From Kribbella solani (GTDB lineage: Bacteria; Actinomycetota; Actinomycetes; Propionibacteriales; Kribbellaceae): a stretch of DNA of 64,000 bases. The stretch lies in NCBI RefSeq assembly GCF_014205295.1, contig NZ_JACHNF010000001.1, positions 806,001 through 870,000 on the forward strand, read 5' to 3'. Below are positions 1 through 11,416 of this stretch, piece after piece. The notes under the pieces are model-generated. The model was not told the origin of the DNA, did not search any database, and worked only from the letters and a program-made list of their open reading frames with translations. Positions within the stretch are counted from its first letter, which is position 1. Each line of letters starts with the position of its first letter. The position numbers and the translations under genes were made by a program.

Positions 1-1372
1 GGTGGCCCGTACGCGTCGAATGGTCCGCCAGGGTTTCCTTCAGCATCTGCAGGCCCGCGCCCAGTTCGCCCTGGCTGAACATGAACCGTGACAGCCAGGT
101 CGCGAGTGCCAGCGCACTGTCCGCATCGCCGCGGAAACGCAGGTGCCGGTACGCGGCCAGGACGTTCGCCTGTTCAGGCATCAGCCGGCGCAGGTACGCG
201 GCGTGCCGGCCGTCGCCGAGCTCTTGTTCGGCGTCGGCGACCAGTTGCAGGAAGTACACGGCGTGCCGGTCGCGTACTTCGTGCTCGTCGATCGTGTCTT
301 GGAGTTGCTCGATGCAGAACGCCTGAATCGTACCCAGCTGATGGAATCGCGGCTCGCCGTCGGGATCGGGCGAGACCGACAGCAATCCCTTGTCCAGCAG
401 GGATTCCAGCAGTTCTTCGCCAAGGTTCCGGGTCACTTGCGCGACGGCCGCCGCGGCCGCGAGGCTGAATCCGTCCGCGAAGACTCCGAGGCTGGTCAGC
501 AGGTGGCGCTCCCGCGGACTGAGCAGTTGGTAGCTCCAATGGATCGCCGCGCGCATGCTCTGCTGCCGAGGTGGCACGTTGGCCAGGTCGAAGCGCAGGA
601 TGTCGATGCCGTCGCGCAACCTGGTCAGCAACGCGGCCGGCGCGAACAGCCGGAGCTTCGTCGCCGCGAGCTCGATCGCCAGCGGCAGTCCGTCGACCAA
701 CCGGCAGATCTCGGCGACGTCGCCGACATTGTCGTCGGTCAGCTTGAAGTCCGGCGTGACCGCCCGGGCCCGCTGTACGAAGAGCGCGATCGACGGCGTG
801 TCAGCCAGCTTCGCGAACGGCATCCGCCGCGAGTCGGGAAGCGGCAGGGGCCGAACCGGGTACAGCCGTTCGCCGTAGATCTGCAGCGGCTGACGGCTCG
901 TGGTCAGTACGCGCAGACTGGGACAGTACGACAGCAGACCGGCCAACAGGTCGGTGACGCCGGTCGCGACGTGCTCGCAGTTGTCGAGAACCAGCAGCAC
1001 TTCGCGGTCGCGCAATCGCTCCCGGATGGTGTCCGCGGTACCGGGATCACGCTGCAACTCGGCAGGACAGGCCGTGGTGACCGCGCTGGGGACCTGGCCT
1101 GATTCCGACAGCGCGGCGAGCTCGACCGGCCAGGCGCCGTCGCGGAAGGCGGCGCGTACGTCCTTGACCACCGCCTGAGCCAACCGGGTCTTGCCGGCGC
1201 CGCCGGGACCGGTGAGCGTGACGAGCCGGGCCGGACTCTGGATGATGCGGCGCAGTTCGGCCCGGTCATGGTCGCGTCCGACCAGCGGGGTCGGCGGGCA
1301 GACGCCGTTCGCCCAGTACACCGCTGTCGTGTCGCGTTGCTCGGCCGGATCACGGCCGTCACCGGTACTCAT
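1..1372 (-). CDS. NB-ARC/AfsR-like ATPase transcriptional regulator (3' end outside the window)
   Basis: The first 457 residues are visible and the frame is open to the window edge. It starts at an ATG that overlaps the stop of the upstream SDR (ATGA), so it is translationally coupled to the biosynthetic operon. A Walker A motif GPGGAGKT lies at residues 55-62 and a Walker B-like VLLVLDNCEHV near residue 140, followed by the TTSRQPL and GLPLAIELAA motifs typical of the NB-ARC domain of actinobacterial regulators. There is no DNA-binding domain at the N terminus, so an HTH, if present, should be in the missing C-terminal part, as in LuxR-type members. Role as a pathway regulator is inferred from position. 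Confidence 0.8.
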   Translation of the reverse strand, partial: MSTGDGRDPAEQRDTTAVYWANGVCPPTPLVGRDHDRAELRRIIQSPARLVTLTGPGGAGKTRLAQAVVKDVRAAFRDGAWPVELAALSESGQVPSAVTTACPAELQRDPGTADTIRERLRDREVLLVLDNCEHVATGVTDLLAGLLSYCPSLRVLTTSRQPLQIYGERLYPVRPLPLPDSRRMPFAKLADTPSIALFVQRARAVTPDFKLTDDNVGDVAEICRLVDGLPLAIELAATKLRLFAPAALLTRLRDGIDILRFDLANVPPRQQSMRAAIHWSYQLLSPRERHLLTSLGVFADGFSLAAAAAVAQVTRNLGEELLESLLDKGLLSVSPDPDGEPRFHQLGTIQAFCIEQLQDTIDEHEVRDRHAVYFLQLVADAEQELGDGRHAAYLRRLMPEQANVLAAYRHLRFRGDADSALALATWLSRFMFSQGELGAGLQMLKETLADHSTRTGH

Positions 1373-2223
1373 CGCGCCGCGTAGCCGCCGTCCACGATCA
1401 GGTCGGTGCCGGTGACGAACGAGGCGTCGTCGGACAGCAGGAACAGCACCGCGGCCGCGATCTCGTACGGGGTCGCCATCCGGCGCATCGGGGTGGCGGC
1501 CACGAAGTCGGTGACGAATTGTTCCGGTAGGCCCGTGGTCATCGGGGTCCGGACCATCCCGGGGGAGACGGCGTTCACGCGGATGCCGGCCCGCGCGAGT
1601 TCGACGGCCGCGGCGCGGGTCATCGCCGCGACGGCGCCCTTTGCGCCGTGGTACGCGAAGGCGGCGCCGGAGCCGATCTGGCCGAAGACCGAGGACACGT
1701 TCACGATCGCGCCACGGCCGGCCAGGTGCATACTCGGTACGACCGTCTGCATGCCCAGCCAGGTACCGCGCTGGCTGACGTTGACGACGCGATCCCATTC
1801 GTCCGCGGTGATGGTTTCGAGACCTTGCCGACCGAGGACGCCGGCGTTGTTCACCAGCAGAGTCGGGTAGCCGAAGTGCCGGCGCGCGGTGCGGGCGAAC
1901 TTCGACCAGGCGTTGGGGTCGGTCACGTCGACCTCGGCCGGAACGACGCGGCCCGGCAGACCAGCCGCCTCGATCTCGGCGGCCGCGGCCGCGCACCGAT
2001 CCCGATCCAGATCACCGAGGACGACACCGACGCCGGCCGAAACCAGCCCGGTCACAACCTCCCGCCCAATCCCACCAGCGGCCCCGGTCACCAGCGCACA
2101 ACGCCCGGCCAGCCCCACCGCCCCACCCAACCGCTCCTGCTGCACCCCCTGCTCGTCGTGGGGGAGCTGAGCTGGGCGGGTTGGCTCTGCGTCCGGTTGG
2201 GCGGGGGTTGTGGCGGGGGTCAT
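1369..2223 (-). CDS. SDR family oxidoreductase (3-oxoacyl reductase-like)
   Basis: This 284-residue protein has a roughly 40-residue Pro/Gln-rich N-terminal leader and then a classical SDR Rossmann domain: TGAAGGIG for NAD(P) binding, NNAG, and catalytic Ser with YHGAK (Tyr and Lys). It ends with the family-typical VTGTDLIVDGGY. The start is the ATG that overlaps the stop of the AcpS-like gene (ATGA), and its own stop overlaps the next start. It is the second SDR of the operon besides the FabG-like gene at 6954-7697, so it may be a late reductase or dehydrogenase acting on the product. The substrate cannot be told from sequence. Confidence 0.85.
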   Translation of the reverse strand: MTPATTPAQPDAEPTRPAQLPHDEQGVQQERLGGAVGLAGRCALVTGAAGGIGREVVTGLVSAGVGVVLGDLDRDRCAAAAAEIEAAGLPGRVVPAEVDVTDPNAWSKFARTARRHFGYPTLLVNNAGVLGRQGLETITADEWDRVVNVSQRGTWLGMQTVVPSMHLAGRGAIVNVSSVFGQIGSGAAFAYHGAKGAVAAMTRAAAVELARAGIRVNAVSPGMVRTPMTTGLPEQFVTDFVAATPMRRMATPYEIAAAVLFLLSDDASFVTGTDLIVDGGYAAR

Positions 2224-2603
2224 TGGTTGGCCTTGTCGGGGGTGGTGGGGAGCCAGGCGAGGGCGGCGGCGTGGTTGGCCGCGTGGGTGAGGGAGACTCG
2301 CGGTACGGCGAGGCACGCCGCTTGACGCCAGCGCTCGATCGCGCCGGAGAGGCGTACCTCGGGTGGCTGACGCGGCGTCCGGAGGATCTCGATGCCCTGC
2401 CACGGCACCGGACCGGGCCAGCACAGCGCCGCGACGACCGCCTGCTTGGCCGCGACTCGCGCGGCCAGGTGCTCGCCGGCCCGCGCGAGCCCGAAGCAGT
2501 ACGCGAGCTCCGCGCGACTGAGCAACCGGCGCCATGGTTGCTCCGGGCAAACATCGTCCGGCACCCGGACGATGCACACCCGAAGCGCGGTCGAGTACGT
2601 CAT
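2220..2603 (-). CDS. AcpS-like protein with missing metal ligands
   Basis: The 127-residue protein matches the AcpS fold: a weak first strand (RVCIVRV), the helix HLAARVAAKQAV, and a final VSLTHAANHAAAL strand. Compared with known holo-ACP synthases (GxDIVE near the N terminus; KEA in the helix), the Mg-binding Asp is Cys and the Glu of the KEA motif is Gln, while the Lys is kept. Catalysis as a phosphopantetheinyl transferase is therefore doubtful. It sits directly after the ketosynthase (ATGA overlap chosen as start; an ATG six bases upstream is possible). It may be a structural partner of the other AcpS-like protein at 8626-9210. Confidence 0.7.
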   Translation of the reverse strand: MTYSTALRVCIVRVPDDVCPEQPWRRLLSRAELAYCFGLARAGEHLAARVAAKQAVVAALCWPGPVPWQGIEILRTPRQPPEVRLSGAIERWRQAACLAVPRVSLTHAANHAAALAWLPTTPDKANQ

Positions 2604-5038
2604 CCGCACGGTGACAGCACCACCGACGCGTACGTACCGCCCCAGTTCGCCGCCGTGACCACCGCGGCCCGGCCGGCCGGATCACGCTCCGACCCGACGT
2701 ACCGCTCCAGCCCAGGCAACGGTTCCCGCAACCCCGCGATCGGCGGAACCCATCCGGTCCCAAGACTCTCGGCGGCAGCGAGTACGGACATCAACGGAGT
2801 CGTCGAGTGGATATGCCCGACCTGTCCGGAAATGTTGGCCAGCCGAGTCGTACCAGCCGGGAACACCGAGGCGATCGCCCGCGCCTCGGCCCGGTCGAGG
2901 GTGCCGGTGCCGCGCGCGTCGCCGTACACCACGCCGACCTCCGCCGGGGTCACCCCGGCCGCGTCCAGCGCGTTGCGGTGGCACTGCGCCCACGCCTCGC
3001 CGGACTCCTCGTTACCCGCGACCCGATACGCATCCGCGGTCCCGGCATGCCCGCGGACCTCGGCGAGGATCGTCGCCCCACGCTCTTTCGCGTGCTCCAG
3101 CGATTCGAGTACGAGGGCAACCGAGCCTGCTCCGAGCGCGCAGCCGCTGGCCCGGGTGTCATACGGCCGGAGCGCGTCGGAGGTCAGAATCCCGAGGTGG
3201 TCGTAGCCGAGATGCACCAGTCCGGTCAGCTCGTCCGCGCTGACCGCCGCCATCACCTCGGCCTCACCCCGCCGGATCAGGTCCGACGCGTACCCGAGCC
3301 CGGCGATACCGGACGCGCAACCGATGGCGAGCGTGGACAGCGGGCCCTTGATCTGCAAGGAAAGGCAGGCGTGGCCGGGTGCCGCGTTCATCACCGAGTT
3401 CGGGAACAGGCGTGGGTTCACCCGGTGCGGACCGTCCGTGCCGATCGTCTCGGTCAGTTGCGCGACGGTGTCCAGCGGACCGGTGTACGTACCGAACACC
3501 ATCCCGACGTCGGTCGCGTTCTGCCGGGTGATCTGGTACTCGGCGTCCGCGAACGCGTCCCGGGTTGCCGCCAGTACGAGGGTTCCGAGCTGGTCCAGCC
3601 GGCGGGCGTACGCGGGATCGATCCGCCGCCGGTAACCCTGATCGGTGATCTCGGCAACCAATTTGCTGGCTGCTTCGCCGGTGTCGATCCGGGTCGCCGC
3701 CGCGATCCCGACCTGGCCGGCGCGCAGGCCGGTGATCAGGCCGTCGCGGCCCAGACCGATCGGCGAAACCACCCCGGCGCCGGTGATGACCACGCGGCGA
3801 TCGGGCCGTTGCGGCCCTGGTTTGAGCGTCCGCCCGAGTACCAGCGAGCAGTTGTTGCCGCCGAAGGCGAACGAGTTCGAGACCACCAGCCCGAGGTCCG
3901 CCCGGCGCGACGCGTTCGGCACGATGTCGTACGCCGGGCCGGCCGCGGCGACCTCCTCGGCCGGCTCGACGTTCACGGTCGGTGGCAGGATCTGTTCGCG
4001 CATCGCCAGCGCGCAGACGGCGGCCTCCAGCGCCCCGGCCGCGCCGAGCATGTGGCCCACCTGCGACTTGGTACTGCTCATCGGCGGCACGTTCTTGCCG
4101 CCGAACAACGCCGTCACCGCCTTGCGCTCGGCGCTGTCGTTGGCAGGCGTTCCGGTGCCATGACCGTTCACATAATCGACATCCGCCGCGGTGTACCCGG
4201 CCTGCTCCAGCGCGCGGCGCATCGCCCGCAGTGCGCCGCCGCCGACCGGGTCCGGCGCGGTGGCATGGTGCGCGTCACTCGTCAACGCGTACCCCAGCAC
4301 GTACCCGAGCACCTGAGCGCCGCGCGCCCGGGCCAGTTCCTCGGACTCGAGTACGAGGAACGCCGCGCCCTCGCCGATGTTGAGTCCGCTGCTTCGCGAG
4401 TACGGGGCGCAGGGCTCCTCGTCGAGTGCTTTCAGGCTGTCGAAGCCCGCGAGCGAGAGCAGGTCCAGTACGTCCACGCCACCGGCCAGCATCACGTCGG
4501 CCCGGCCTTCGCGAATGGTGTCCAGCGCCCAGCCGATCGAGTTCGCACCGGCCGCGCAGGCGTTCGAGATCACCACCTTCGGGCCTTTCAGGCCGAAGGC
4601 CGCGCTGACCGCGTCGGTCGAGGTGGACAGCGGGTACATCAGCAGATGCGCCTTCGAAGCGCCGGCGCGGCCGTCACGGAGCAGCTGCCAGTGGTACTGC
4701 TCGCCGGCATCGAGACCGCCCACCGACGTACCCGTCGCGATCCCGACCCGGTACGGATCGAATCCCGCGAGGTCCAGCTTGGCGTCCTCGAGCGCCTCCG
4801 CCGCGGCCCCGAGGGCCAGGCCGATCGCCCGATCGATCCGGCCTTTGCTCCGCCGCGGCGGAGCCGCCACCTCGGCGACCTCACCCGAGTAGTGGCAGCT
4901 CAGCGTGGACGTGTCCAGCCGCTTGGTCCGGCCGATGCCGCTGACGGCGTCGCGGACGCCGGTCCAGACCGCGTCGGCCCCGGTGCCCAGCGCGCAGGTC
5001 ACCCCGATGCCGGTAATGGCGACCCCTGTGGCGTTCAT
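2600..5038 (-). CDS. Fused tandem ketosynthase (KS and chain-length-factor-like KS in one chain)
   Basis: The 812-residue protein consists of two complete thiolase-fold ketosynthases, about residues 1-405 and 413-812. The first has the full catalytic set: Cys161 (SNACAAG), His293 (HGTGT), Lys324 and His329 (KSQVGH). The second keeps Cys574 (AIGCASG) and His742 (GQVGH), but the first His is Arg709 (ARGTGT) and the Lys is Ser737. The second half therefore looks like a non-condensing, chain-length-factor-like partner fused to the active one. Type II systems normally encode these as two separate proteins. The start ATG has a GAGGAG ribosome site. It probably extends chains on the ACP at 6609-6893. 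Confidence 0.9.
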   Translation of the reverse strand: MNATGVAITGIGVTCALGTGADAVWTGVRDAVSGIGRTKRLDTSTLSCHYSGEVAEVAAPPRRSKGRIDRAIGLALGAAAEALEDAKLDLAGFDPYRVGIATGTSVGGLDAGEQYHWQLLRDGRAGASKAHLLMYPLSTSTDAVSAAFGLKGPKVVISNACAAGANSIGWALDTIREGRADVMLAGGVDVLDLLSLAGFDSLKALDEEPCAPYSRSSGLNIGEGAAFLVLESEELARARGAQVLGYVLGYALTSDAHHATAPDPVGGGALRAMRRALEQAGYTAADVDYVNGHGTGTPANDSAERKAVTALFGGKNVPPMSSTKSQVGHMLGAAGALEAAVCALAMREQILPPTVNVEPAEEVAAAGPAYDIVPNASRRADLGLVVSNSFAFGGNNCSLVLGRTLKPGPQRPDRRVVITGAGVVSPIGLGRDGLITGLRAGQVGIAAATRIDTGEAASKLVAEITDQGYRRRIDPAYARRLDQLGTLVLAATRDAFADAEYQITRQNATDVGMVFGTYTGPLDTVAQLTETIGTDGPHRVNPRLFPNSVMNAAPGHACLSLQIKGPLSTLAIGCASGIAGLGYASDLIRRGEAEVMAAVSADELTGLVHLGYDHLGILTSDALRPYDTRASGCALGAGSVALVLESLEHAKERGATILAEVRGHAGTADAYRVAGNEESGEAWAQCHRNALDAAGVTPAEVGVVYGDARGTGTLDRAEARAIASVFPAGTTRLANISGQVGHIHSTTPLMSVLAAAESLGTGWVPPIAGLREPLPGLERYVGSERDPAGRAAVVTAANWGGTYASVVLSPCG

Positions 5039-5071: not shown

Positions 5072-6094
5072 TTACTCGAGTGGTACGCCGAAGCTGGTGG
5101 CGACCAGGAACGGCGCGGCGGTGGTCAGTACCAGGTGTTCGGGCTGCTCGAGGGTCAGCTCGAGCCCGGCCGCGGCCACGTCGGCGTCGACCCGGGCGGT
5201 GCCGATCACCCGCTCGAGCCGGGGCGAGTACACCGCGTGCGTGACCGCTCCGAGCGGCTCGCCGTCCACGCCGAGGGCGGTGCCGGCGGCCGGCGGGTCG
5301 TCCAGCCCTTCGGCGGCGATCCAGCAGACCGGGCGGCGGGCCGGACCGGCCTCCCAATGCGCGGTGAGCGCCGCCTTGCCGATGAACTCGTGGCCGAAGT
5401 CGACCATCCACTGCAGGCCTGTCTCGAACGGCGTCGCGCCGTCGGCCTCCTGCTCCAGGTTGGCGAACCGCATCTCCATCCGGCAGATGTCCAGGGCATC
5501 CAGGCCGACCGGCTGGGCGCCGAGTCCGGCCAGGTGATCACGCAATTCATTGCCCGCGGCAACCGGGATGTGCAGCTTGTACCCGTACTCGCCGCTGACG
5601 CCGGTCCGGCTGACGAGCAGATCCTGGTCGTCGCCCCACGACTCGGTGACGAAACTCGAGTACGACATCGAGGTGATCGGGAAGGACAGGAACTTCTGGG
5701 CGAGCGCCGGTGATTGCGGGCCTTCGATCCCGTACACGCGGTAGTCGTCGGTGACGTCCTGCACGTTCACGTCCTGGCCGCAGGTGTTGCCGGCGGCAAC
5801 CAGGTAGTCGGCCACCGCGGCGGCCTGGGCCGGCCAGACCTCCACCAGGTAGTCGTTCCCGGAGCAGTGGATCAGCGCCTCGGCCAGCAGGGTGCCGTCG
5901 GTGTTCAGCAGCAGCGCCGAAGAGATCTGTCCTTCGAGCAGGAAGTCGACGCCGCGGGTCGAGACCTGGCTGAGGAACTGGGCCGCTTCGCCGCCGGTGA
6001 TCCGGAGCAGGCCGAGGCCGGTGTAGTCGATCAGGCCGCACGCGCCGCGCAGCAGCTCGTACTCGGCGACCGGGTCGGAGTAGACGTTCCGCAT
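5072..6094 (-). CDS. GcvT-like folate-binding aminomethyltransferase family protein
   Basis: A 340-residue member of the GcvT/YgfZ/DmdA superfamily: N-terminal GLIDYTGLGLLRITG, then the middle GVSGEYGYKLHIP and a C-terminal GLQWMVDFGHEFIGK segment. In true T-proteins a conserved Asp follows the GGIxDD motif; here the equivalent stretch reads GTLLAEAL, so that acid is missing or replaced by Glu. It might bind tetrahydrofolate and act in methyl or one-carbon transfer, or have another role. The ATG at 6094 has an AAGGGA site six bases upstream; an upstream ATG at 6118 overlaps the previous stop. It is an unexpected member of a fatty-acid-like operon. Confidence 0.8.
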   Translation of the reverse strand: MRNVYSDPVAEYELLRGACGLIDYTGLGLLRITGGEAAQFLSQVSTRGVDFLLEGQISSALLLNTDGTLLAEALIHCSGNDYLVEVWPAQAAAVADYLVAAGNTCGQDVNVQDVTDDYRVYGIEGPQSPALAQKFLSFPITSMSYSSFVTESWGDDQDLLVSRTGVSGEYGYKLHIPVAAGNELRDHLAGLGAQPVGLDALDICRMEMRFANLEQEADGATPFETGLQWMVDFGHEFIGKAALTAHWEAGPARRPVCWIAAEGLDDPPAAGTALGVDGEPLGAVTHAVYSPRLERVIGTARVDADVAAAGLELTLEQPEHLVLTTAAPFLVATSFGVPLE

Positions 6095-6114
6095 GATTGG
6101 TCCCTTCGTCAATG

Positions 6115-6612
6115 TCATTGACTGTCATTCCGTTCGGTCACGACGAGCCGGGTCGTCATCACCACTTCGCGGCCGACCGACGCCTGGCCGATCACCGACA
6201 TCAGGTCCCGCAGCCGCGGACCGGTCTGAGCCCGGATCACCAGCTGGTCGCCGGGTACGACCGTGCGCAGGAACTTTGCCTGCTTGATCTCGGCGAGATA
6301 GCCGACGCGTTCGGCGACGTCCGCGACCGGCTCGCCGGTGGCCTGGGTCGCCGCCGCGCTGCCGTAGATCACCGCGGCGAGCTGCGCGACGCATTCGACC
6401 AGCAGTACGCCCGGGTACAGCATCCGGCCGGGAAAGTGGCCGGCCAGGACGGGATCGGAGGCGGTGATGCTCTTGATCGCCTCCGCCCGTACGCCTGGCT
6501 CGACCGACGTCACCCGGTCCAGCAGGAAGAACGGGTACCGGTGCGGCAGCAGCCGGGCGATCTCGTCGGCGGACAGTTCGCGTACTCGCGCGACCGCGGG
6601 CGTACTCGTCAC
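6115..6612 (-). CDS. 3-hydroxyacyl-ACP dehydratase, FabZ type
   Basis: A 165-residue single hotdog protein. It carries HRYPFFLLDRV at residues 24-34 and GHFPGRMLYPGVLLVE at residues 58-73. The FabZ catalytic pair is present with normal spacing (His59 and Glu73). It would remove water from 3-hydroxyacyl-ACP after the ketoreductase at 6954-7697. The GTG start overlaps the stop of the ACP gene (GTGA). Its presence implies that at least some cycles are reduced to the enoyl level. No enoyl reductase is seen in the operon, so an unsaturated or polyene chain is possible. Confidence 0.9.
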   Translation of the reverse strand: MTSTPAVARVRELSADEIARLLPHRYPFFLLDRVTSVEPGVRAEAIKSITASDPVLAGHFPGRMLYPGVLLVECVAQLAAVIYGSAAATQATGEPVADVAERVGYLAEIKQAKFLRTVVPGDQLVIRAQTGPRLRDLMSVIGQASVGREVVMTTRLVVTERNDSQ

Positions 6613-6893
6613 CGGTTGCCCGCCACGTGGTCGACGAGTCGGTTGAGTGAGAGCAGGCACTCGGTGTCGTCGTCGGTGATGACCACCCCGAACTCGTCCT
6701 CGACGGCCATCGCCAGCTCGAGCGTGTCGATCGAGTCGAGCTCGAGCCCACGGCCGAACAGCGGCTGGTCGTCACCGATCATGTCCGGGTCCACCGCCAG
6801 GGCGAGCCGCTCGACCAGCAGGTGCTTGACCTCGCCGCACAGCTCCTGCCGTACCTTCGCGGCTGCCTTCGTCTCTTCCAGCGTTGCCACCAT
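6609..6893 (-). CDS. Acyl carrier protein
   Basis: A 94-residue carrier protein with the phosphopantetheine motif ELDSIDTLEL; the attachment Ser is residue 54. It is acidic in its second half, as usual for ACPs. A GGAGAGG ribosome site precedes the ATG. The stop overlaps the FabZ start by four bases. It is the only carrier protein of the operon and would serve the fused ketosynthase, with the AcpS-like protein at 8626-9210 as a candidate activating enzyme. Confidence 0.92.
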   Translation of the reverse strand: MVATLEETKAAAKVRQELCGEVKHLLVERLALAVDPDMIGDDQPLFGRGLELDSIDTLELAMAVEDEFGVVITDDDTECLLSLNRLVDHVAGNR

Positions 6894-6953: not shown

Positions 6954-7697
6954 TCAGCAGGTCAGGCCGCCGTCGATGACGACGGACGCCCCGGTCACAT
7001 AGGCGGATTCGGGGCCGAGCAGGAACCGCACCACCGGCGCCACGTCCGCGGGTGTTCCGATCCGGCCCAGCGGCACGCGTTCCACGAAAGCGGTCAGCTG
7101 GTCCTGCGGCATCGAGCGCGTCATCGCGGTGTCGACGAAGCCCGGGATCACGGAGTTGACCCGGACGCCGTAGCTTCCGAGCTCCTTGGCGAGCACCCGG
7201 ACCACGGCGAGCAGACCGGCCTTGGAGGCGGCGTAGTTCGCCTGGCCGGCCGGGGCGTTCACGCCGCTGGTGGAGGCCACCGCCACGATCGCGCCGCCGC
7301 GCTGCACCGCCATCAGCCGAGCTGCCGCGCGGCAGACCAGGAACGAACCGGTGAGGTTGGTCTCCAGGACCGAACGCCACTTCTGCTCGCCCATCATCAG
7401 CGCGTAGCCGTCGTTCGCGATGCCGGCGTTGCTGACCAGACCGTCCAGCCGGCCGTGGTCGGCGCGGATGCCGCGGAACATCCGGTCCACCTCGGCCGGT
7501 ACGGCGACGTCGGCCTGGATCAGCTCGGCCCGCGGTTGCAGTTCGCGGATCTGCTCGAGGACGCGCTTGGCCTGCTCGAGGTCGCGCCGGTAGTTCAGCA
7601 GTACGCGGGTGCCGTCCGCGGCCAGGTCCATCGCGACACCGAGGCCGATGCCCTTCGTGGCGCCGGTGACCAGGACGACTCGTTCTGATTTGCTCAT
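6954..7697 (-). CDS. 3-oxoacyl-ACP reductase, FabG type
   Basis: A 247-residue classical SDR: TGATKGIG cofactor loop, SNAGIANDG, catalytic Ser in ASTSGV and YAASK, and the C-terminal VTGASVVIDGG. The ATG is in a TGATG overlap with the upstream malonyltransferase stop; a GTG one codon earlier is an alternative. Neighbours make ketoreduction of ACP-bound intermediates the likely task. A 60-base gap separates it from the ACP gene, which has its own strong ribosome site, as expected for a protein needed in higher amounts. Confidence 0.88.
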   Translation of the reverse strand: MSKSERVVLVTGATKGIGLGVAMDLAADGTRVLLNYRRDLEQAKRVLEQIRELQPRAELIQADVAVPAEVDRMFRGIRADHGRLDGLVSNAGIANDGYALMMGEQKWRSVLETNLTGSFLVCRAAARLMAVQRGGAIVAVASTSGVNAPAGQANYAASKAGLLAVVRVLAKELGSYGVRVNSVIPGFVDTAMTRSMPQDQLTAFVERVPLGRIGTPADVAPVVRFLLGPESAYVTGASVVIDGGLTC

Positions 7698-8629
7698 CAC
7701 CGGACCGCCGTCCGGAGACTGAGGGCGAGTGCTTCGGAACCGGTCAGGTGCCGGCCCGTCCGCACCATGCTGCGGCCGAGCCCGGTCAGCACCCGGCCGG
7801 GACCGACCTCGACGAAGGTTCGCGCACCGATCCGGGCGAGGGTCCCGACGGTGTCGGTCCAGCGCACCGGCCGCATGATCTGGCGACTGAGCAGCTGCCG
7901 GTACGCCTCGATGTCGTGGACCGCGCAGCCGGTCAGACTGGAAATGAACGGTACGCGGGGCGCGCGCAGGTCCGCCGCCGCGAGCATCGGCGCGAGTTCA
8001 CGCTCGGCCTCGGCCATCAGCGGCGAGTGGTACGCGCCGCCGACCGGCAACCGTTTCACCCGCAGCGCGCCGGCCGACCGGGCGGCCTCGATCACCAGCT
8101 CGACCTCCTCCGGCGTGCCGGACACGACGACTTGCCGTGGTGCGTTCAGGTTGGCCAGGACGACCACGCCCGCGCTGACCGAGGACTGCCGGCACAGATC
8201 GGTCACGTGATCCGCCGACAGTCCGCCGATGGCGGCCATCGCTCCCGGTTCCCGCTGCGCCGCGTCGGCCATCGCCCGGCCCCGCTTCGCCACGATCGAG
8301 AGCGCGTCCGCCCAGCTCAGACAGCCCGCGGCGACCAGCGCGGCGTACTCGCCGAGGCTGTGCCCGGCCACCGCGATCGGGCGGCAGCCGGCCGCGGTGA
8401 GCTCGGCCGACAGCACGCTCGACCAGACGAAGACGGTGAGCTGAGCTGCCTCGGGATCCGCCAGCGTGATCGCGTCGGCGCGGGTCATCAGCTCGCCGAC
8501 GGCGACGCCGGTCAGTTGTTCCGCGGTGTCGATCAGGCTCCGGGCCTCGACTCCACAGCGCGCCAGTTCGCGGCCCATACCAGGTCGTTGGCTGCCCTGG
8601 CCGGGGAAGACGAACGCCAAGCCGGTCAC
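7697..8629 (-). CDS. ACP S-malonyltransferase, FabD type
   Basis: A 310-residue acyltransferase with FPGQGSQRPGMG at the N terminus, the nucleophile elbow GHSLGEYAAL, and the His-containing GGAYHSPLM segment. It would load malonyl (or a related extender) from CoA onto the ACP. The GTG start overlaps the stop of the AcpS-like gene by four bases. A dedicated transacylase in the operon suggests that the pathway does not rely only on the housekeeping fatty-acid synthase. The specificity motif does not allow a firm choice between malonyl and methylmalonyl. Confidence 0.9.
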   Translation of the reverse strand: MTGLAFVFPGQGSQRPGMGRELARCGVEARSLIDTAEQLTGVAVGELMTRADAITLADPEAAQLTVFVWSSVLSAELTAAGCRPIAVAGHSLGEYAALVAAGCLSWADALSIVAKRGRAMADAAQREPGAMAAIGGLSADHVTDLCRQSSVSAGVVVLANLNAPRQVVVSGTPEEVELVIEAARSAGALRVKRLPVGGAYHSPLMAEAERELAPMLAAADLRAPRVPFISSLTGCAVHDIEAYRQLLSRQIMRPVRWTDTVGTLARIGARTFVEVGPGRVLTGLGRSMVRTGRHLTGSEALALSLRTAVR

Positions 8630-9210
8630 CAGTCCACCTCCGCCTCGGTCGCGGCGGCCCAGCACAGATCCAGTGCGGGGAGGCCGGGGGACGGGCAGGG
8701 GTGCAGTGCGCCGTGGCCGGGAATCTCGGGCGCTCGGCGGTCGGCATTCGGTGGCGCCTGCGCTGAACCGGCGGTGTCCGGGCACTCCTCCAGAACACCG
8801 CCGGCCAGCACGCCGCCGGCCAGCACGGCCCGGTGATCGCGGGCCCAGCGGGCCAGCTCTCCCCGCAACCGGATCGGCCGGGCACCGTCGCCGCCCGTCG
8901 TAGCGACGACGATGTCGCGGTAGCCGGCCCCGACCGGCAGACCGCCGACGATCTTGATCACGCATTCCTTGATCCCGAACAGCCGAGCCAACTCCGCCGG
9001 CTCGGCCGCTCGTTCGGTTTCGTCGAAAATGCGGTGCGGCCAAGCCGGACCGACGCGCCTGGCGGCCAGCGCGAACCGCTGCTGGTCGAGCAGGTCGACA
9101 CCGGCGCCCAGCAGCCGGCCCCCAGGTGTCCGGGGCACCGTCAATACCGTGGCGTAGCCGTCCGTACCGTCGAGCGGCAACGGCCGGCGGTGGCCGGTAG
9201 AAGGCATCAT
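8626..9210 (-). CDS. Holo-ACP synthase (AcpS)-like phosphopantetheinyl transferase
   Basis: A 194-residue protein whose first 120 residues match AcpS: GAGVDLLDQQRF holds the metal-binding Asp, and FGIKECVIKIVGG holds the KE pair. The C-terminal 70 residues are Pro-rich and do not resemble the usual short AcpS end. It is the first gene of the minus-strand operon. The ATG at 9210 has GGGAGC seven bases upstream and is preferred to one at 9231. It likely converts the ACP at 6609-6893 to its holo form. It differs from the second AcpS-like protein at 2220-2603, which has lost these ligands. Confidence 0.8.
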   Translation of the reverse strand: MMPSTGHRRPLPLDGTDGYATVLTVPRTPGGRLLGAGVDLLDQQRFALAARRVGPAWPHRIFDETERAAEPAELARLFGIKECVIKIVGGLPVGAGYRDIVVATTGGDGARPIRLRGELARWARDHRAVLAGGVLAGGVLEECPDTAGSAQAPPNADRRAPEIPGHGALHPCPSPGLPALDLCWAAATEAEVDW

Positions 9211-9485
9211 GAGTTTGCTCCCAACACGCATTGAATCGGGGGGCGGGTGGGCTCGGTGCTGAATTCCGAGCGCTTGTTCGTGCGGGTTGGGGTGGATGCT
9301 ATGAATCCGCTCTCGGGGCTGTCAAGGAATCCACGCCTAACCAATGCTTGCCGGTTGACGCCCGGCGCCGGCCGTCGCCAGTCTTGGCGCAGTCCTTACC
9401 GCCGGCGAAAAATGTTGAGACCGGCATCAATAGTTTTCACCGGAATCAATTATCGACAAATATATGAATGGAAAGGAAACGGCCT
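9211..9485. promoter_or_regulatory. Divergent promoter region of the KS-KS operon and the thioesterase
   Basis: This is the longest gene-free stretch in the window. It separates the minus-strand operon from the plus-strand thioesterase/flavoenzyme pair. The part at about 9425-9475 is clearly AT-richer than its surroundings, as expected for a promoter. No convincing -35/-10 pair or clean palindrome could be picked by eye. Confidence 0.4.
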
Positions 9486-9947
9486 ATGCCACGCTGGGTC
9501 GAGACCGCGCCCCGGATCGTCAGCTGGGGGTACGTGGAGACCGCCGTCCAGGTGCGGTGGTCCGAGTGCGATCTGCAGCGCCATGCCTACTACGGCAACT
9601 ACATGGTCTGGTGCGATCTGGGCCGGGAGGCGTTCGCCCTGGCCGTCGGGGTGAACTACCTGGACTACCAGTTCACCACCACCGAGTTCCGGATCCGTTT
9701 CCACACCCCGGCCTACTATCGCGACGAGCTGCTGGTCCGGACCTGGAGCTCGACGCCGCAGGCCCGGCTCGACTGCCACTACGAGATCTATCGCAAAGCC
9801 GGCCGGCAACTGATTGCCGAGGCAACTTCCCGGCACGCGCTGGTGGACTCCGAGAAGGGCCTCCGGGTCAAGGGCCCGTCGGAATTTCACGACATTTTCG
9901 AGGCGTTTCTGGAAAGCAAGCGGCCGCGTCAGCCCGAACGCGCGTAG
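9486..9947 (+). CDS. Hotdog-fold acyl thioesterase (4-hydroxybenzoyl-CoA thioesterase / YbgC family)
   Basis: A 153-residue single hotdog domain with VRWSECDLQRHAYYGNYMVW: the family active-site segment in which an acidic residue precedes the xxHxxYxNY motif. The ATG at 9486 has a GGAAAGGA site; an earlier in-frame ATG at 9468 lacks one. It is divergent from the ketosynthase operon and followed after 35 bases by the flavoenzyme. Release of an acyl chain from CoA or ACP is the inferred job, which would fill the missing termination step of the operon. Confidence 0.85.
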   Translation: MPRWVETAPRIVSWGYVETAVQVRWSECDLQRHAYYGNYMVWCDLGREAFALAVGVNYLDYQFTTTEFRIRFHTPAYYRDELLVRTWSSTPQARLDCHYEIYRKAGRQLIAEATSRHALVDSEKGLRVKGPSEFHDIFEAFLESKRPRQPERA

Positions 9948-9982: not shown

Positions 9983-11416
9983 ATGAGTGAGCTACCTACT
10001 GATCAGTTGGCCGCCCAGTTGCGCGGTGAACTGCTGGTCCCGGACGGTCCCGGTTACGAGGACGCGCGCCGGGTGTACAACGCCGCGATCAATCGGCGGC
10101 CGGCGCTGATCGTCCGCTGCCGCGGGGTCGCGGACGTGGTCCGGTCGGTCCGGTTCGCGGCCGAGCATTCGCTCCCGGTCGCGGTCCGCGGCGGCGGTCA
10201 CAGCGTTGCCGGGCACGGCACCTGCGACGGCGGCCTACTCGTCGATCTGTCCGGCATGCGTGATGTCCGGGTCGATCCGGAAGCACGCACGGTACGAGTC
10301 GCGGGTGGCGCCACGCTGGGCGACCTGGACGCCGGCACCCAGCTGTTCGGCCTGGCTACACCCACTGGCCAGGTGTCGATGACCGGCATCGCCGGCCTCA
10401 CGCTGAACGGCGGCATGGGAATGTTGCAACGCCGCTACGGCCTGACGTGCGACAACCTGTTGTCGGCGGACGTGGTGACGGCCGATGGCAGCATCGTCAC
10501 GGCCGGCGCGGACAGCCACCCGGAGTTGTTCTGGGCGTTACGTGGCGGCGGCGGCAACTTCGGCGTGGTGACCTCGTTCGAGTTCCGTTGCCATCCGGTC
10601 GGTCCGACGGTCCTGGCCGGCATGGTCGCCTGGCCGGTGGACAAAGCACCCGAGGTGCTGGCGTTCCTGCGCGACTACATCGTGGACGCGCCGGAGGAGC
10701 TCAGCGCGGACGCGCTCTTCATGTTCGCGCCGCCGCTCGACGTGATCCCGCAGGAGTACCAGGGCACCCGGCTGATCGGGATCTTCCTCCGGTACGTCGG
10801 CGCGGACCTCGATCCCGAGGTGGTCCGGCCGATCCGCGAGTTCGGTACTCCGGTGCTCGACTTCGTCTACCCGATGCCGTACGTCGCGGTGCAGCAGATG
10901 CTCGACCCGTTGAACCCGAACGGAAACCTGCACTACTGGACCGGCGAGTACCTTGCCGAGCTCGGCGACAAGCAGATCGAGTTGCTGTCCATGTTCGGCG
11001 CCAGCCTGCCGGACCCGCATTCGATCATCGAGGTGATCCCGTTCAACGCCGCGGTCACCCGGGTCGCGCCGGACGCGACCGCGTTCAGCCACCGGCAGGA
11101 CAGCTGGCTGATCCACATCCTCGGCCAGTGGCCGGACCCGGCCGACTCGCACCGCTGCCGGACCTGGGTCAAACGGGCCGGCGCCGACCTCCGGGCGATC
11201 GGCTCCGGCGACACGTACCTGAACCTGGTCACCGATGAGGAAGTCGACCGGGTCGACACGGTCTGGAACAAGACCCGCATGCGCCGGCTGGCGAAGGTGA
11301 AGGCCCAGTACGACCCCGGCAACATGTTCCGCTTCAACCACAACATCAAGCCCGCCGATGATGCGGACAAGGATGCGGCCGCGGATGCGGACACTCGTCG
11401 CGAGCGGCGACGGTGA
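9983..11416 (+). CDS. FAD-linked oxidoreductase, BBE-like (mono-covalent flavin)
   Basis: A 477-residue vanillyl-alcohol-oxidase-fold enzyme. His73 in VRGGGHSVAGHG is the likely covalent flavin site. The second site used by bicovalent members (a Cys near GGxG) is absent; the segment reads TGQVSMTGIAGLTLNGG. The C-terminal berberine-bridge motif YDPGNMFRFNHNI is present. An AGGAGG site precedes the ATG. The last 71 bases overlap the 3' end of the convergent TrkA-N gene, and the C-terminal 20 residues are Asp/Ala/Arg-rich and outside the domain. It probably oxidises the product of the neighbouring acyl pathway. Confidence 0.85.
   Translation: MSELPTDQLAAQLRGELLVPDGPGYEDARRVYNAAINRRPALIVRCRGVADVVRSVRFAAEHSLPVAVRGGGHSVAGHGTCDGGLLVDLSGMRDVRVDPEARTVRVAGGATLGDLDAGTQLFGLATPTGQVSMTGIAGLTLNGGMGMLQRRYGLTCDNLLSADVVTADGSIVTAGADSHPELFWALRGGGGNFGVVTSFEFRCHPVGPTVLAGMVAWPVDKAPEVLAFLRDYIVDAPEELSADALFMFAPPLDVIPQEYQGTRLIGIFLRYVGADLDPEVVRPIREFGTPVLDFVYPMPYVAVQQMLDPLNPNGNLHYWTGEYLAELGDKQIELLSMFGASLPDPHSIIEVIPFNAAVTRVAPDATAFSHRQDSWLIHILGQWPDPADSHRCRTWVKRAGADLRAIGSGDTYLNLVTDEEVDRVDTVWNKTRMRRLAKVKAQYDPGNMFRFNHNIKPADDADKDAAADADTRRERRR

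Follow-up and report, generated by a model that had tools for sequence, protein, structure and literature searches.

In a window of 64,000 nucleotides from Kribbella solani (contig NZ_JACHNF010000001.1, positions 806,001 to 870,000), one gene on the reverse strand encodes a protein of 812 residues made of two ketosynthase (KS) units. We consider it likely that this gene encodes a natural single-chain ketosynthase/chain-length factor (KS/CLF) of a reducing type II polyketide synthase (PKS). The chain joins a KS with the complete catalytic set (KS1) to a KS-like partner without it (KS2), in which one catalytic His and the Lys are replaced and the Cys is present.

Two ketosynthase halves in one chain

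2600..5038 (-): fused KS-KS protein, 812 residues, with KS1 predicted to be the active ketosynthase and KS2 chain-length-factor-like (ORF, Pfam, residues, tree, alignment)
3827..5038 (-): KS1 half, residues 1-404, with Cys161/His293/Lys324/His329 (residues, family scores, alignment)
2603..3826 (-): KS2 half, residues 405-812, with Cys574/Arg709/Ser737/His742; complete KAS II fold in the AlphaFold2 model

The open reading frame (ORF) is intact, starts with ATG and runs as a single Kribbella chain, in which Pfam finds the ketoacyl-synt N and C domains in two stretches each and reports no domain beyond the two KS units, unlike a Pfa-type megasynthase. KS1 and KS2 align with each other at 32% identity over 362 positions (E=3e-40). 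An earlier sequence-only reading of the window, which had described two full ketosynthases in one 812-residue chain, is borne out by the intact ORF, by Pfam and by this self-alignment, and all eight active-site residues that it named stand where it had placed them. Third-position GC content is 0.90 in KS1, 0.88 at the junction and 0.85 in KS2, which indicates one coding frame throughout. Compared with the K. catacumbae orthologue, the ratio of nonsynonymous to synonymous change (dN/dS) is about 0.13 in KS1 (dN 0.069, dS 0.540) and about 0.12 in KS2 (dN 0.081, dS 0.666), and purifying selection acts on KS1 as well as on KS2. Against the FabF model TIGR03150, with a cut-off of 493.75 bits, KS1 scored 352.6 and KS2 232.8 bits, and neither half passes singly; the genome's own FabF, encoded elsewhere, scored 495.8 bits, over the cut-off.

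The two catalytic sets were compared over an alignment of 42 fused proteins, which includes the near-copies L111 (99.6% to L062) and L113 (100% to L070) and leaves out L102 (same place as L082), L089 (contig end), L090 (run of N) and L096 (two genes). KS1 keeps its Cys-His-Lys-His set in all 42 proteins, and the full tetrad is found in none of the 42 KS2 halves. At site 574 of KS2, 20 rows have His, 12 Gly, 5 Cys, 3 Asn, 1 Ala and 1 Asp. Over the same rows, with L108 truncated and without letters at 709 to 742, site 709 is His once (L114), Arg in 7 and otherwise mostly Ala, Thr or Ser; site 737 is Lys in 27; and site 742 is His in 7 and Glu in 26. Judged by its residues, the second half is CLF-like.

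A tree of 50 KS domains (11 KS1 halves, 11 KS2 halves, 17 single KSs, 2 KS-alpha, 3 KSx, 4 Cys-less KSy and 2 separate CLFs) places all 11 KS2 halves on one side of a 99/99 branch and every nonfused row on the other. The tree is unrooted and a midpoint drawing root falls within the KS2 group, and therefore the KS2 halves would form a clade only with a true root outside their group. The rows left out of the KS2 side include the four KSy and the only two separate CLFs in the tree, with neither of which KS2 groups, namely, L074_CLF, an annotated chain-length factor, and L071_KS2, which is annotated fabF and called a CLF here since it stands next to a KS and has lost the Cys. Ten of the KS1 halves group at 96/93, and all 11 together with one Streptomyces KS group at 99/97; the KS1 halves need two label changes and form a single group in 46% of bootstrap trees. 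The KS2 of the window joins that of Priestia at 99/95, and the KS2 halves of Lachnospira and Pseudalkalibacillus are long rows that attract each other, with unsure placement. The second half thus did not fall among the standard active KSs, and the distinct lineage proposed in the sequence-only reading holds in this unrooted tree, in which the KS2 halves stand apart from the active KSs and from both CLFs. Its proposal of a natural covalent KS-CLF is supported by the fusion, the residue sets and the tree grouping.

The part of that reading that did not stand concerns Cys574. The subfamily of the window comprises six members, three from Kribbella and three from genus g11 (63 to 66% identical to the window protein), a genus read here as Streptomyces, since named Streptomyces plasmid proteins match two of its proteins at 99.6 and 100% identity. 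Arg709 and His742 are kept in all six, and all six have the same set of eleven genes listed below. Site 574 is Cys (TGC or TGT) in five and Gly (GGC) in the sixth, G800, and it is Cys in none of the 36 fused rows outside the subfamily. G800 keeps the same eleven genes with Gly at this site, so the gene set can persist without Cys574. With Cys in 5 of 42 rows and Gly in this close relative, retention of Cys fails as a feature of the lineage. The idea that Cys marks an intermediate form between KS and CLF was rejected as well, since site 574 is too variable over the 42 rows (Cys, His, Gly, Asn, Ala or Asp). On a tree of 40 fused proteins, with L111 and L113 left out, this site needs eight changes (quick method, LG+G4), a count that does not separate a Cys retained from a Cys regained. 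From these comparisons the Cys of the second half looks dispensable, and Cys574 is probably a leftover or structural residue. Cys574 is the least secure part of our account; the fusion family and its GcvT-like neighbor are of more interest.

Modeled alone with AlphaFold2, KS2 is predicted to adopt a complete KAS II fold (pLDDT 92.9), with Cys574 at a helix start. Compared with solved structures, the model has Z scores of about 60 for FabF and 58 for the ishigamide KS, and its nearness to FabF is partly built in because its alignment consists mostly of FabF-type rows (37 rows, of which 33 are KS relatives from viral contigs). Of the proteins with solved structures, PDB 9s5h chain B is nearest in sequence to both halves, and chain C also matches KS2; 9s5h is possibly a two-subunit KS pair.

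Distribution of the fusion family

The single-chain KS-KS is a real fusion family that occurs in Kribbella, Streptomyces, other Actinomycetes, Priestia, Lachnospira and Pseudalkalibacillus; the same fusion, which the sequence-only reading had suggested looking for in other genomes, was found in at least two phyla. Within Kribbella, 3 of 38 genomes of the genus have a match at E<=1e-80, namely, the window and two orthologues at 86% identity. One of these genomes, K. albertanoniae (G015), has, in addition, a distant His-type fused KS-CLF in another cluster (L023:7061-12468), which also contains two further KS genes, one without its Cys. In genus g11, 14 of 295 genomes have matches at E<=1e-100.

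Plasmids of Priestia megaterium encode a fused protein 40% identical to that of the window. When this protein was searched against 72,556 plasmid records, 22 matched at E<=1e-100, each in one piece: 15 from Streptomyces, 4 from Priestia, 2 from Lachnospira/[Eubacterium] eligens and 1 from Pseudalkalibacillus. The annotation of six matching records (seven regions, two of them from Priestia) gives one coding sequence each at the fusion. As annotated, the fusion of Lachnospira eligens (L068:9983-12376) lies among ACP, FabG-, FabZ- and FabD-like genes and acetyl-CoA carboxylase beta, with plsX further on, as if in a fatty-acid operon. The Pseudalkalibacillus plasmid fusion (L069:9992-20809) is annotated with KAS III, HAD-IIIC phosphatase, ACP and E2-type genes, a set reminiscent of tetronate pathways.

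A BLAST-type search of 396 Actinomycetota genomes returned one other match over both halves (G197, 780 residues). The more sensitive profile search of 394 whole Actinomycetes genomes returned 20 matches besides the window at E<=1e-120, of which 18 are in one frame over both halves (L087 and L090 among them contain unread bases), 1 is at a contig end and 1 is two genes. A contig scan with the KS2 alignment, limited by its narrow patterns, yielded nothing beyond the two Kribbella already known and a Chloroflexi KS, and a scan of viral contigs with KS1 found no relatives. When KS2 was searched against the 394 genomes with four candidates scored in each, the eight best matches (at least 294 bits) all lay in fused frames; from 273 bits down, the matches listed mix KS frames of ordinary length with fused ones. 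No unfused relative of KS2 was seen in these genomes, where a weak one would be hidden in the background at or below 273 bits. Among the 72,556 plasmid records, the four best KS2 matches are the Priestia fused proteins (258 bits), and the next listed scored 166.

The operon and its GcvT-like gene

The fused gene lies in a run of nine genes on the reverse strand, followed by two on the forward strand. In addition to the fusion, the set comprises the following:

1369..2226 (-): short-chain dehydrogenase/reductase (SDR) oxidoreductase, start approximate, as the ORF runs to 2763 (Pfam, NCBIfam)
2220..2609 (-): small protein, weakly AcpS-like (Pfam E 0.012, below cut-off); adjoins the fusion in Kribbella and genus g11
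5072..6118 (-): GcvT-like protein with an aminomethyltransferase fold, scoring under the GcvT cut-off and lying 33 bases upstream of the fused gene
6115..6660 (-): FabZ-like dehydratase (Pfam, NCBIfam)
6609..6893 (-): acyl carrier protein (ACP) (Pfam, NCBIfam)
6954..7700 (-): FabG-like ketoreductase (Pfam, NCBIfam)
7697..8620 (-): FabD-like malonyltransferase, start approximate, as the ORF runs to 9043 (ORF list, Pfam, NCBIfam)
8626..9231 (-): AcpS-like phosphopantetheinyl transferase, matched weakly and under the cut-offs
9468..9947 (+): 4HBT-type thioesterase, divergent from the operon (Pfam)
9983..11416 (+): FAD-linked (berberine-bridge-like) oxidase, start approximate (Pfam, NCBIfam)

These eleven genes are common to the three Kribbella and three genus g11 genomes, and eight of them, from the thioesterase to the fusion, also occur on Priestia plasmids; the FAD-linked oxidase occurs in the other two Kribbella clusters and in all three of genus g11, with no match in the Priestia stretches. 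Discrete monofunctional ACP, ketoreductase (KR), dehydratase (DH) and malonyltransferase (MAT) genes in one cluster are the composition of a type II PKS. As in the highly reducing kind, a KR and a DH gene are both present, next to a second SDR that may be an enoyl reductase. For both SDRs, the nearest NCBIfam models are FabG. The AcpS-like genes at 2220-2609 (-) and 8626-9231 (-) each weakly match only part of the AcpS model, and their sequences perhaps represent a split or degenerate phosphopantetheinyl transferase pair. At 2-1366 (-), an open frame cut by the left edge of the window contains a P-loop (GPGGAGKT), and its sequence suggests a large ATPase-type regulator.

A GcvT-like gene stands beside the fusion in 16 of 26 neighborhoods, which were picked by hand and not at random, and occurs in two phyla, on four branches of the tree of fused proteins. 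The positives are the window, L024, L025, L061 (by annotation and match), L097, L117, L118, L059, L098, L115 and L203 to L208; the profile was built from eight of the neighborhoods, which match by construction, and the six positives L203 to L208 are not in it. By the same profile, the gene is absent from the other ten (L116, L209, L210, L099, L023, L060, L062, L068, L069 and L070). All seven members examined from the large Actinomycete branch are without it, and their site 574 is His in six and Asn in one. The GcvT-like protein of the window scored 100.9 bits against TIGR00528, under the cut-off of 235.85, and a true GcvT encoded elsewhere in the genome scored 316 bits. In the VVDDLIAY region of true GcvT, which contains an Asp that we take to be catalytic, the cluster-encoded proteins from Kribbella, g11 and Priestia carry Glu for the second Asp, and the alignment is gapped there in L098 and L115. 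'Glycine cleavage T' appears in none of the matches listed (15 of 497) in a search of the open-licence literature. The fusion also leads to a family of operons, so far unstudied, that have a GcvT-like partner. A bolder proposal, which we regard as doubtful, is that two or more phyla share a separate type II synthase architecture, with a GcvT-fold protein as the fixed partner of a one-chain KS-CLF; this partner would perform folate-type one-carbon chemistry (C1 added or removed) on the ACP-bound chain.

Proposed function, rival explanations and known systems

From the residues, fusion, grouping, operon and conservation observed here, we infer a scheme in which KS1, with Cys161, His293, His329 and Lys324, would take the growing chain from ACP and condense it with malonyl-ACP supplied by the FabD-like enzyme. 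KS2 would no longer condense; it would pair with KS1, within or between chains, as a chain-length factor that shapes the pocket. In this presumably iterative cycle, each new beta-keto group would be reduced and dehydrated by the FabG- and FabZ-like enzymes. Unless the second SDR is an enoyl reductase, the expected product would be an unsaturated (polyene-like) acyl chain, which the thioesterase probably releases.

Several observations weigh against this scheme. The whole 812-residue chain scored 573.4 bits with the FabF model, over its cut-off, and 345.0 bits with the AmcF model, over the cut-off of 325, because two domain scores add up. The KS2 model leans to the fold of the FabF rows that make up most of its alignment, and a whole-chain AlphaFold2 model from a four-row alignment reached a pLDDT of 29 and was not used. 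The Gly574 of G800 comes from one draft genome (630 contigs, 79% complete), and Cys574 in five and His742 in all six of the closest members are more than a purely dead site needs. The best Pfam family of both SDRs, adh_short_C2, is named after enoyl-ACP reductase, and for that reason the absence of an enoyl reductase is not firm. The Lachnospira fusion lies near accD- and plsX-like genes. In the literature searched, no product or activity was found for any fused member.

The pattern at Cys574 and His742, with Cys absent from the 36 other fused rows and predicted at a helix start in the KS2 model, is what a partly functional KS2 would show if these two residues accepted and held an acyl group, for starter loading or parking, during condensation by KS1. 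We nonetheless consider this unlikely: His is replaced by Arg709 and Lys by Ser737, one member with the same gene set has Gly574, and the other 36 rows have His, Gly, Asn, Ala or Asp at that site. It also appears improbable that the genes form a fatty-acid-synthase-like system that makes a particular acyl chain, be it a membrane, spore or exported lipid, rather than a polyketide. The genome has its own FabF elsewhere, the distribution is patchy (3 of 38 genomes of the genus), and the Priestia copy, with a major facilitator superfamily (MFS) gene, lies on a plasmid described as nonessential for viability in PMC4674009, although the parts do resemble FabF, FabG, FabZ, FabD and ACP, the second SDR might be an enoyl reductase, and the genes around the Lachnospira fusion agree with such a role.

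Two active ketosynthases in a tandem fusion would account for two complete KS domains and for the Cys and one His of KS2, and yet we hold this to be very improbable, given the replaced His and Lys of the window KS2, the lack of a full tetrad in any of the 42 KS2 halves and the separation of these halves from active KSs in the tree. An assembly or frameshift artefact joining two genes, the check proposed in the sequence-only reading, is refuted, with a probability that is practically nil: the frame is single and even in codon composition, and the fusion is also read in independent genomes of two phyla, namely, two other Kribbella, genus g11 and Priestia.

The single-chain KS/CLF that we favor can be set beside several known systems. 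In type II KS/CLF, an active KS is joined by a KS-like partner without the catalytic set, as stated in PMC12664062. The actinorhodin type resembles the window system in this pairing and in its discrete ACP, KR and MAT genes; in the window, however, there is one polypeptide, KS2 does not group with the two separate CLFs of the tree, and the annotated CLF of L074 has Gln where KS2 has Cys574. The highly reducing type II PKSs (ishigamide Iga11-Iga12 and aryl polyene ApeO-ApeC) likewise combine KR and DH genes with a KS/CLF, and 6kxd, the ishigamide KS/CLF, is among our sequence and structure matches. The window differs in its fused chain and GcvT-like gene; no second KS gene is among the genes listed around the operon. 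The aryl polyene CLF is about half the size of its KS, according to PMC8358021, whereas KS2 is full length.

AmcF-AmcG (KS-CYF) of cispentacin biosynthesis shares a type II-like set of KS, partner, ACP and hot-dog enzyme. KS1 scored 225 bits with the AmcF model, the cut-off of 325 being reached by neither half, and AmcF and AmcG are separate proteins, with a CYF that lacks some CLF secondary structure (PMC10698177). The operon BMQ_RS26325-RS26290 on P. megaterium pBM500 has the order thioesterase, AcpS, FabD, FabG, ACP, FabZ, GcvT-like and KS-KS, with identities to the window proteins of 39, 36, 32, 43, 50, 45, 29 and 40%, respectively, and its genes are annotated by family names only. It differs in that the thioesterase is on the operon strand, the KS2 Cys site is Asn, an MFS gene is adjacent and there is no FAD oxidase match; a small protein after KS-KS has the same position as in the window, with no BLAST match to that of the window. 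pBM500 is dispensable for viability (PMC4674009); the text of that paper is without 'ketoacyl', 'polyketide' and 'fatty acid', and nothing on the Priestia cluster is among the literature matches listed.

In polyunsaturated fatty acid (PUFA) synthases, KS and CLF are covalently joined as well, and a crystal structure of the M. marina KS-CLF didomain is reported in PMC9702510. That didomain sits in a multidomain megasynthase, whereas the window protein is a stand-alone chain with discrete partners. The comparison was made by model scores: KS1 scored 352.6 bits with FabF and 87.5 bits with PfaA, far under the cut-off of the latter.

KS and CLF normally need co-expression and matching. The review PMC12664062 describes KS/CLF as an obligate heterodimer in which one CLF can as a rule not be swapped for another. 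A natural one-chain version, which occurs in many variants in lineages from Actinomycetes to Bacillota, offers a fixed 1:1 pair for structure and engineering and could ease the study of KS/CLF enzymes; because the former active site of its second half differs so much between members, it can be used to ask what a CLF needs. Among the matches listed in the open-licence literature, none is a stand-alone fused KS-CLF of a type II system, and a search there for KS-CLF fusions as such gave no paper. The closest precedents are the type II KS/CLF heterodimer, from which the window protein differs in being one chain, and the PUFA KS-CLF didomain, from which it differs in standing alone with discrete partners.

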